In this document: piece by piece, positions 18,073-33,634 of the stretch | Layout: the number at the start of each line of letters is the position of its first letter | Position numbering within the stretch: position 1 is the stretch's first letter | Source: Candidatus Omnitrophota bacterium | GTDB taxonomy: Bacteria; Omnitrophota; Gorgyraeia; Gorgyraeales; Gorgyraeaceae | Length of the DNA stretch: 45,622 nucleotides | Direction of reading: 5' to 3' | Assembly (NCBI GenBank): GCA_018819285.1 | Contig: JAHJQM010000018.1 | Location: forward strand, 1 to 45,622 | The notes under the pieces: model-generated | Seen by the model: only the letters and a program-made list of their open reading frames with translations | The model's database searches: none | Told to the model about the DNA's origin: nothing | Program-made: the position numbers and the translations under genes

Positions 18073-18202
18073 TGTCCACCCAAAAGAAGTGTACATTTTA
18101 CATCTATTTACCCGTCAAATAGTTATGTAATTTCCAGCCAGAAATGACCGGACAAAACGGACATTTTTGTGAGGAATAAACCTCTCTAAAGTCAGAAAAT
18201 TG

Positions 18203-18360
18203 CTTGTTTTTGTCAGTAATCTCGCTATAATACATACCTATTATATAGCGAGAGGTTCCTCCTCGGCTAATAAGAGTGGGACCCCAGTATTATGCCTCTC
18301 TACAGGAGAGGCAAGCGAATAATAGCGTTGATTCTGAAGTAGGATCAGCGCTATTTTTAT
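18203..18360 (+). ncRNA. Copy 1 of repeated structured RNA element (TATAAT promoter, GGUUCC/GGGACC core, hairpin, terminator)
   Basis: TATAAT 18226-18231; GGTTCC 18254-18259 pairs with GGGACC 18278-18283; GCCTCTC/GAGAGGC 18294-18312; 14-bp terminator arms 18321-18334/18342-18355 then TTTTT. Confidence 0.6.
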
Positions 18361-19912: not shown

Positions 19913-19979
19913 TTTGACTATGTCAGGACATTTCGGACAAATTACGCGAGGAATAAGCCTCTCTAAAGTCAGAAATTTG

Positions 19980-20136
19980 CTTGTTTTTGTCAGTAATCTC
20001 GCTATAATACATACCTAATATATAGCGAGAGGTTCCTCCTCGGATTAACGATGAGGGACCCCAGTAATATCGTTCTCCGCGCATAATGGGAGAGTTTAAC
20101 GCCTATGATCGAAACAGCGGTCATAGGCATTTTTAT
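19980..20136 (+). ncRNA. Copy 2 of repeated structured RNA element
   Basis: TATAAT 20003-20008; GGTTCC 20031-20036 / GGGACC 20055-20060; middle hairpin 20072-20095; terminator GCCTATGATCG/CGGTCATAGGC 20101-20128 then TTTTT. Confidence 0.6.
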
Positions 20137-20237
20137 CTGTCGATGTTTAAAAGAGTTAGGGGTAGATAATGCAGGAAGAAGCTTTTCTCCTTGCAAATGC
20201 GAGCAGTGTCTGATAAAATAAGTTAAATTTAACAGGA

Positions 20238-20312
20238 ATGGGCGATATGCAGACCCTGCTTAAAAACAGGGTCTTTTTTTATCTGCCAATATTTAAGGAT
20301 TTTAAAATATGA
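20238..20312 (+). promoter_or_regulatory. Putative leader peptide ORF (MGDMQTLLKNRVFFYLPIFKDFKI*) overlapping an attenuator hairpin
   Basis: ATG 20238 (or 20247, better SD spacing) to TGA 20310-20312 overlapping the ABC-F ATG at 20309; hairpin GACCCTG/CAGGGTC 20252-20273 plus T7 within it. Confidence 0.5.
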
Positions 20313-25679: not shown

Positions 25680-25859
25680 CGGAATAATAGCTGTTCTGTT
25701 TAGGCAGACCTTATAAGGATTAATTAACCAATGTCCGGACAAAGAGATGTGGACAAAACGGACATGGTTCGACGCATTCACTTCGCTCATTTGCTCACCA
25801 TAGCGAGGAAATGTCCTCTCCGAATCCAGAATTTTATTGATAACTGCCATATTCAGCCT

Positions 25860-25928
25860 TATAATACATACCTATATATAGCGAGAGGTTTCTCCTCTGC
25901 TGATACGAGAGGGACCCCAATTTTTTTT
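25860..25928 (+). ncRNA. Copy 3 of repeated structured RNA element (short form)
   Basis: TATAAT 25860-25865; ataatacatacctatatatagcgagagg conserved; GGTTTC 25887-25892 / GGGACC 25911-25916; T8 at 25921-25928. Confidence 0.55.
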
Positions 25929-32710: not shown

Positions 32711-32735
32711 CACTGCGCTGAGAACAAGTTAATAT
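32707..32735 (+). promoter_or_regulatory. Consensus promoter of the thiamine operon
   Basis: TTGACA 32707-32712, 17-nt spacer, TAATAT 32730-32735; overlaps bioA stop. Confidence 0.8.
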
Positions 32736-32737
32736 AT

Positions 32738-32834
32738 AAATGATGGGGAGGCCGCATATAACGGTCTGAGAGTTCTGTGTGATAAGCAGATTACCCTTTG
32801 AACCTGATCTGGATAATGCCAGCGTAGGGACGAT
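32738..32834 (+). ncRNA. TPP riboswitch (THI element)
   Basis: GGGG...CTGAGA...ACCCTTTGAACCTGATCTGGATAATGCCAGCGTAGGGA hallmark. Confidence 0.96.
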
Positions 32835-32842
32835 ACGATAGG

Positions 32843-32877
32843 CCCTTATGCTTTGGCATAAGGGTTTTTGTTTTTTT
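32843..32877 (+). terminator. Intrinsic terminator downstream of TPP aptamer
   Basis: CCCTTATGC-tttg-GCATAAGGG then TTTTTGTTTTTTT. Confidence 0.85.
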
Positions 32878-32980: not shown

Positions 32981-33634
32981 ATGGATACAGTGCAGAATAT
33001 TGAAGATTACAGTCTATACCTGGTAATAAGCGAAGAATATGGCATGGGTAGAAGCGCCGTAGAAATAGCAAAACTTGCTATCTCTGGCGGAGCTGACATT
33101 ATACAGATGCGGGAAAAGGATAAAGATAGGAATGAACTGGTGAAACTCGCCTGTGAACTTTCAAGCCTTTGCAAAAAAAAGCGCGTTATATTCATAGTGA
33201 ATGACGATCCGCTCATAGCCAGAGAAAGCAATGCTAGCGGCGTACATCTGGGGCAGGAAGATATGCTGAAATACAGCTTAACCGAAACAAGGGATATTAT
33301 CGGAAACGGCAAAATAATCGGTGTCTCAACGCATTCTTTAGCAGAGCTGGAGAAAGCAAATGAATGCGATGTTGATTATATAGCTTATGGGCCTATCCTT
33401 CCTACAGAGACAAAAAAATATTTTCTAGGCACCAAAGATATAAAGGAAGCGTTAAAAATTGCTAAAAAACCCGTGGTTTTTATAGGCGGTATTAATCTGT
33501 CGAATTTGGACGAGGTTTTAAAACAAGGCGCAAAAAACATAGCTGTGATCAGGGGCATAATACAGGCGGAAGATATAATGATTATGGCCAGAAACTTTAA
33601 GGATAGGCTTATAAGAGAAAAAGAGGACGGATAA
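32981..33634 (+). CDS. thiE: Thiamine-phosphate synthase
   Basis: GADIIQMREKD, NDDPLIA, GVHLGQEDM, YIAYGPILPT. Confidence 0.95.
   Translation: MDTVQNIEDYSLYLVISEEYGMGRSAVEIAKLAISGGADIIQMREKDKDRNELVKLACELSSLCKKKRVIFIVNDDPLIARESNASGVHLGQEDMLKYSLTETRDIIGNGKIIGVSTHSLAELEKANECDVDYIAYGPILPTETKKYFLGTKDIKEALKIAKKPVVFIGGINLSNLDEVLKQGAKNIAVIRGIIQAEDIMIMARNFKDRLIREKEDG

Follow-up and report, generated by a model that had tools for sequence, protein, structure and literature searches.

The window analysed here, a stretch of 45,622 nucleotides of a contig from a Candidatus Omnitrophota bacterium, contains three copies of an intergenic element, each consisting of a sigma70-type promoter and a 37-nt core whose consensus is GAGAGGTTTCCCCTCGGCTNATACGAGAGGGACCCCA, with a TATAAT box upstream of the core in every case (Table 1). 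All three copies were recovered where they had been predicted from inspection of the DNA. The motif GCGAGNGGTTYCTCCTC, at up to 3 mismatches, gave exactly 3 matches in the window as compared to 0.23 expected, and a search of the organism's own genome returned these three copies only, every one on the same contig. The second hairpins and terminators of copies 1 and 2 agree with their earlier description, and in copy 3, as had also been claimed, the core is followed immediately by T8 with no second hairpin between. The simple terminator scan that was applied has a loop limit of 8, which excludes the core hairpin, and copy 3 was therefore missed by it. When compared to shuffled sequences, the full-length copies folded far better (z -4.6 for copy 1 and -5.4 for copy 2), while copy 3 showed no clear gain (z -1.4).

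The ORF behind copy 1, which may resemble a sigma factor, had no Pfam match, and a scan of the approximately 50 nt between the copy 1 terminator and this ORF yielded no promoter-like site, in line with the attenuator reading given below. Immediately ahead of an ABC-F gene (20309), positions 20191-20308 hold a promoter-like site, a possible short leader ORF and a second terminator (20251-20274), an arrangement that looks like a separate ABC-F attenuation. A TPP riboswitch (RF00059, 65 bits) was located at 32734-32847, upstream of an ORF at 32981.

Table 1. Positions of the three copies, their component parts and the adjoining ORF in the window.
Feature	Coordinates	Strand	Remarks
Copy 1, left end of repeat, degenerate TGTCC..GGACA-type hairpin	18073..18095	+	homology of unrelated contexts begins about -178 from core
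Copy 1, direct repeat CGGACAAAACGGACA	18149..18163	+	
Copy 1, upstream arm GTGAGG-N6-CCTCTC	18169..18186	+	partly inverted copy of core start
Copy 1, -10 box TATAAT	18226..18231	+	spacing conserved class-wide; predicted start near 18238
Copy 1, conserved core hairpin, 37 nt	18250..18286	+	60.2 bits
Copy 1, second hairpin TGCCTCTCT/AGGAGAGGCA	18293..18313	+	
Copy 1, intrinsic terminator (predicted)	18321..18355	+	terminator scan; helix covaries among complete copies
ORF behind copy 1, 136 aa	18406..18816	+	about 50 nt downstream of copy 1 terminator
Copy 2, direct repeat AGGACATTTCGGACA	19925..19939	+	end point of homologous Fic block common with G009
Copy 2, upstream arm GCGAGG-N6-CCTCTC	19946..19963	+	
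Copy 2, -10 box TATAAT	20003..20008	+	predicted start near 20015
Copy 2, core, hairpin variant with shifted register (..GATTAACGATGAGGGACCCC)	20027..20063	+	46.5 bits
Copy 2, second hairpin TTCTCC/GGGAGAG	20073..20094	+	
Copy 2, intrinsic terminator (predicted)	20101..20128	+	terminator scan
Copy 3, left end TGTCCG..GGACA and direct repeat GGACAAAACGGACA	25732..25764	+	
Copy 3, upstream arm GCGAGGAAATGTCCTCTC	25803..25820	+	
Copy 3, promoter TTGATA-17-TATAAT	25837..25865	+	11 of 12
Copy 3, core hairpin	25883..25919	+	61.0 bits
Copy 3, U-run (T8)	25921..25928	+	abuts core; core and U-run terminator form

A dispersed repeat within one Omnitrophota class

The original prediction was of a free RNA family with three copies; the family instead has more than 130 members and is one component of a dispersed promoter module, sharp-ended and class-wide. 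From 22 cores a covariance model (R1) was constructed; applied with a cut-off of E <= 1e-4, it matched 72 of 384 genomes of one Omnitrophota class, covering 51 genera, and elsewhere in the phylum it matched one genome only, which belongs to another Omnitrophota class. At the genus level a DNA search detected related copies in 9 of 12 genomes, and the collection under study comprised 133 core copies in total, many of them close to contig ends, from genomes that are MAGs. The copies are often grouped, with 2-6 per contig in a single orientation, and in a hand count from the R1 match list the orientation of all 40 further copies, distributed over 26 contigs, was in agreement. Spread to other phyla was rejected, as exact 18-mer matches in non-Omnitrophota contigs were devoid of the remainder of the core, and an origin from phages or plasmids was rejected as phage, viral and plasmid records held no match to the element. 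Its predicted absence from Rfam was borne out: in a search of Rfam 15 neither the copies of the window nor complete copies elsewhere had a match at or above the gathering score, the matches obtained being TPP riboswitches and one fluoride riboswitch, none of them at the element, and a known riboswitch or non-coding RNA was accordingly rejected. A search of the literature, limited to open papers, revealed no description of the family.

The core constitutes the right-hand part of a discrete repeat of approximately 215 bp (-178 to +37 relative to the core start). Matches between copies in unrelated contexts have their left limit at -176 to -180 and their right limit at +36 to +42, and longer versions of the repeat end near +134 and at +265 to +329; in being a short discrete repeat with sharp ends in unrelated contexts, the element is like a MITE or IS derivative. 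As the similarity reaches upstream of the promoter, to about -178, it is a DNA module that is copied and not the RNA alone. Its usual order is a TGTCCG..CGGACA left-end hairpin, which is terminator-like in many copies, including counterparts of the left-end hairpin of copy 1, followed by a short palindrome ending AAAGAGTTACG, a CGGACA-N3-CGGACA direct repeat, a GCGAGG-N5-CCTCTC arm, the promoter and the core. The full module is not universal: among 125 testable copies, 67 showed the direct repeat and 91 the arm. The distance from the end of a TATAAT box (at most 1 mismatch) to the core behind it is 16 or 17 nt in 91 of the 133 copies, and this spacing is held although the promoters of the sub-types represent several unrelated sequences. 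Copies 1 and 2 have the predicted 3' hairpins, but what had been regarded as sequence divergence between these hairpins reflects two of a number of module types seen again in other genomes. Complete copies can carry further downstream modules, among them a TTAGTTTATG/CTAGTTTATG duplication that has a partner in inverted orientation.

Such a conserved downstream module, with the direct repeat TTAGTTTATG-N4-CTAGTTTATG and the inverted CATAAACTA, was observed at L039:2250-2520, L113:4640-4900, L162 and in other complete copies, and in some copies this trio changes jointly to TTATATAATG/CTATATAATG/CATTATATA. The organism's own genome, when searched with a downstream module of G011, returned nothing.

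Homologous gene blocks of relatives break at or near the repeats. For the sensor-kinase operon of G005 and G008 one block begins exactly at a core start and another stops, in G005, approximately 90 nt short of the following core. The Fic block common to G000 and G009 ends at a CGGACA repeat, and G017 and G000 have in common an ABC-F gene together with the repeat up to the core end, the genes behind it being different. In G001 the upstream flank of copy 1 is joined to the downstream flank of copy 3, which is what a deletion between copies would give, and homologous recombination between repeats would suffice for these rearrangements. Next to the arrays no Phage_integrase/tyrosine recombinase match was detected, and the genomes of many carriers encode just two such proteins, presumably XerC and XerD. 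The repeats resemble integron gene-cassette arrays in being co-oriented between genes that vary among relatives, but differ from them in having no adjoining integrase, a promoter in each unit and multi-gene segments; integron attC sites, with a similar layout of paired boxes in one orientation, were rejected owing to the absence of an integrase and to a conservation that centres on the transcribed core. The one resident IS that was compared has the ends GTACAAAAATTATA, unlike those of the repeat, and derivation as a MITE of this nearby IS was, on this single comparison, rejected.

At L112:4697, L113:9738 and L164:2333 an IS-end-like TATAATATTTGCACCGTGC starts no more than a few bases from where the core ends, as though the core served as a hot spot for insertion. 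At L037:16773-17332 (G005) the core is broken after CCTCTG and adjoins a gene which, by eye, resembles a REP-associated Y1 transposase.

Similar repeats are known from other bacteria. Correia elements and other promoter-bearing bacterial MITEs are short intergenic dispersed repeats with a sigma70-type promoter that drives neighbouring genes (PMC10969869), and the Omnitrophota repeat is like them in being short, dispersed and intergenic and in carrying such a promoter; unlike them, it has no recognised terminal inverted repeats, a fixed promoter-hairpin spacing and RNA structure on the sense strand, and it occurs in at least 51 genera of a class in co-oriented clusters. The pneumococcal BOX and SPRITE repeats are modular mosaics with optional units, RNA secondary structure and terminator-like units (PMC10969869), all of which the present family parallels; however, the organism is unrelated, the Omnitrophota module includes a promoter and a terminator-like left end, and the sequences were compared via Rfam only.

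An alternative explanation is that the element acts as a DNA-level repeat, comparable to a MITE or a cassette boundary, whose promoter and hairpins merely insulate or express the neighbouring gene and whose RNA has no switching role. The sharp ends of the shorter and longer versions, the uniform orientation per contig, the deletion-like junction of G001 and the varying genes between copies among relatives (Fic, the sensor-kinase operon, nucleotidyltransferase genes) all suit this explanation. It is nonetheless judged unlikely, as structural coupling is confined to the sense strand (see below), the promoter-core spacing is fixed, typical terminal inverted repeats were not seen and no tyrosine recombinase was found beside the arrays.

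Constraint on the core as RNA

The core is constrained as RNA on the sense strand. Within the genus no covariation was detected in the core, so that the three copies alone could not have shown a conserved structure, and the claim that structure is kept under sequence change held only once more members were added. For the 109 distinct 37-nt cores of the class, the mean folding energy of the sense strand was below that of 400 out of 400 column shuffles, whereas on the antisense strand 189 of 400 shuffles folded as well, which makes it indistinguishable from shuffles; as column shuffles take no account of relatedness, these figures are not formal probabilities. GU combinations are 5-8 times commoner than AC combinations in the core stem cells (166-242 versus 31-32). 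Plain folding stability did not differ between sense and antisense (p 0.20), and it is the coupling test alone that separates the strands. Core positions 9-11 exhibit almost only C/T variation and face conserved G's, the apical loop of L134 holds a 43-nt insertion with the stem intact, and in several copies register-shifted variants of the core still pair. In the terminator helix of 27 complete copies, 83 double-change cells were counted as compared to 27 in shuffles, with a covariation score of 0.40 versus 0.16. The core helix and the GAGA/UCUC closure of complete copies hardly vary and hence say little alone.

The element was found in three forms: the core with a second hairpin and a terminator, with a predicted RNA of approximately 120 nt (copies 1 and 2); the core with an immediate U-run (copy 3); and the core fused to an ORF within 110 nt, represented by 50 copies for which a simple Shine-Dalgarno rule was used to pick ORF starts. 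In many copies the core forms the 5' leader of a protein gene and is followed at once by a U-run, rather than being the free RNA originally envisaged. The T frequency in the 50 fused leaders is 0.52-0.76 at positions 2-6 after the core as compared to 0.28, and a T-run of at least 4 is present in 21 of them, the mean for control windows being 3.25. Owing to this enrichment the core and its U-run are terminator-like and are placed between promoter and gene, so that, as far as can be read from the sequence, a terminator hairpin with a U-run precedes the ORF in the manner of an attenuator. Core positions 1-4 (GAGA) are 94-99% conserved and lie outside the terminator stem; two of them fall within a competing 5' hairpin GAGG/CCUC (3-6 with 12-15), the pairs of which are possible in 93-96% of copies. 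Being short and nearly invariant, this hairpin provides no covariation; its median energy is -4.5 kcal/mol versus -8.8 kcal/mol for the terminator-like stem.

A leader of this kind could also be a processive antitermination element of the put, LoaP-leader or EAR type, causing the polymerase to ignore later terminators, and copy 1, where a promoter-proximal conserved hairpin is followed by a terminator and then a gene, would suit such a role. This is very improbable, however, since the core itself is terminator-like when U's come next and carriers as a rule possess a single NusG, the same as non-carriers. The single NusG in nearly all carriers implies that there is no LoaP-type paralogue, and a NusG paralogue was rejected as a partner for not being specific to carriers. 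We give even less credence to a leader whose antitermination would depend on binding by the one ANTAR-domain protein of these genomes. One ANTAR protein is encoded in 25 of 28 sampled genomes of the class, but genomes that lack the element have it just as often, and it was rejected as a partner on account of this lack of specificity; furthermore, the hairpins of the element are without the dual hexaloops of ANTAR targets, which have A at position 1 and G at position 4.

A proposed portable promoter with a putative attenuator

The explanation that we favour, at a probability of roughly 45%, is that this modular intergenic repeat represents a portable, mobile promoter with a built-in cis-acting transcription attenuator. 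In the course of transcription, switching and regulation that we infer, RNA polymerase would start at the conserved sigma70-type promoter approximately 10 nt before the core, as judged from the -10 spacing, and the nascent 5' end would first fold the small GAGG/CCUC hairpin, after which the remaining core would fold the longer and mutually exclusive hairpin (5-16 with 24-35). This longer hairpin with its U-run, or the second hairpin with its strong terminator, would bring transcription to an early end, unless some signal (a ligand, a protein, or the speed of transcription or translation) shifted the balance towards read-through into the gene behind; complete copies such as copies 1 and 2 would by default release a short RNA of approximately 120 nt. 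Given the U-run enrichment of the fused form, the core hairpin resembles a terminator that lies in a gene leader and is overlapped by a 5' hairpin competing with it. Attenuation usually has this geometry, but the switch and its signal are putative. Transcription attenuators and terminator-type riboswitches likewise combine a 5' leader before an ORF with competing hairpins, one of which has a U-run, but the Omnitrophota leader resides on a dispersed repeat before unrelated genes and has no ligand or pathway theme.

Several observations argue against the attenuator. The competing 5' hairpin shows no covariation, a U-run of at least 4 was present in only 21 of the 50 fused leaders, and for several complete copies visual inspection suggests that the following gene has a promoter to itself, so that there the terminated RNA cannot attenuate this gene in any simple way. 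The latter observation, exemplified by CrcB behind a fluoride riboswitch, would accord with a different product, namely the terminated RNA of complete copies acting in trans as an sRNA, with gene-fused copies as derivatives that captured promoter and leader. Approximately 33 complete copies with core, second hairpin and terminator are consistent with this, and in the RNAalifold prediction the invariant GAGA of the core is paired with a UCUC, likewise invariant, in the second hairpin, which gives a compact three-helix RNA. We nevertheless hold an sRNA to be doubtful: the cores of gene-fused copies are equal to or better than those of complete copies, and the top scores are largely fused, which indicates that the core is kept without the remainder of the complete form; the U-run enrichment of the fused leaders would also be left unexplained.

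The genes found behind copies encode GreA, Fe/Mn superoxide dismutase, rubrerythrin, Fur, CrcB, MATE, MscS, ZIP, TspO, carbonic anhydrase, response regulators and secreted proteins, as well as a heme peroxidase of the KatG type (named by eye). They have no common pathway, so that no ligand is suggested, which also counts against the attenuator, and their diversity argues against control of one metabolic pathway; our impression is of a general stress theme. A far-reaching version, which we consider improbable, is a class-wide mobile gene-control system in which an attenuator or aptamer on a recombining promoter module would subject unrelated adaptive genes, such as those for superoxide dismutase, rubrerythrin, peroxidase, Fur, CrcB, MscS, MATE and GreA, to a single shared signal within a cassette region that is co-oriented and has no integrase.

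Promoter-bearing repeats and attenuators are each known separately. The family described here, previously unlisted, looks like a promoter joined to a conserved RNA hairpin that resembles a switchable transcription stop, located before many unrelated genes. A regulon built through the movement of promoter and terminator-like leader as one unit, with more than 130 examples across 51 genera of this uncultured phylum, would be unusual in its assembly. If correct, it would represent a portable gene-control device with more than 100 testable examples, and the family offers a ready set of natural variants with which a new ligand or regulator can be tested. At L149:1861-1924, a fluoride riboswitch was observed before crcB, downstream of a complete copy.
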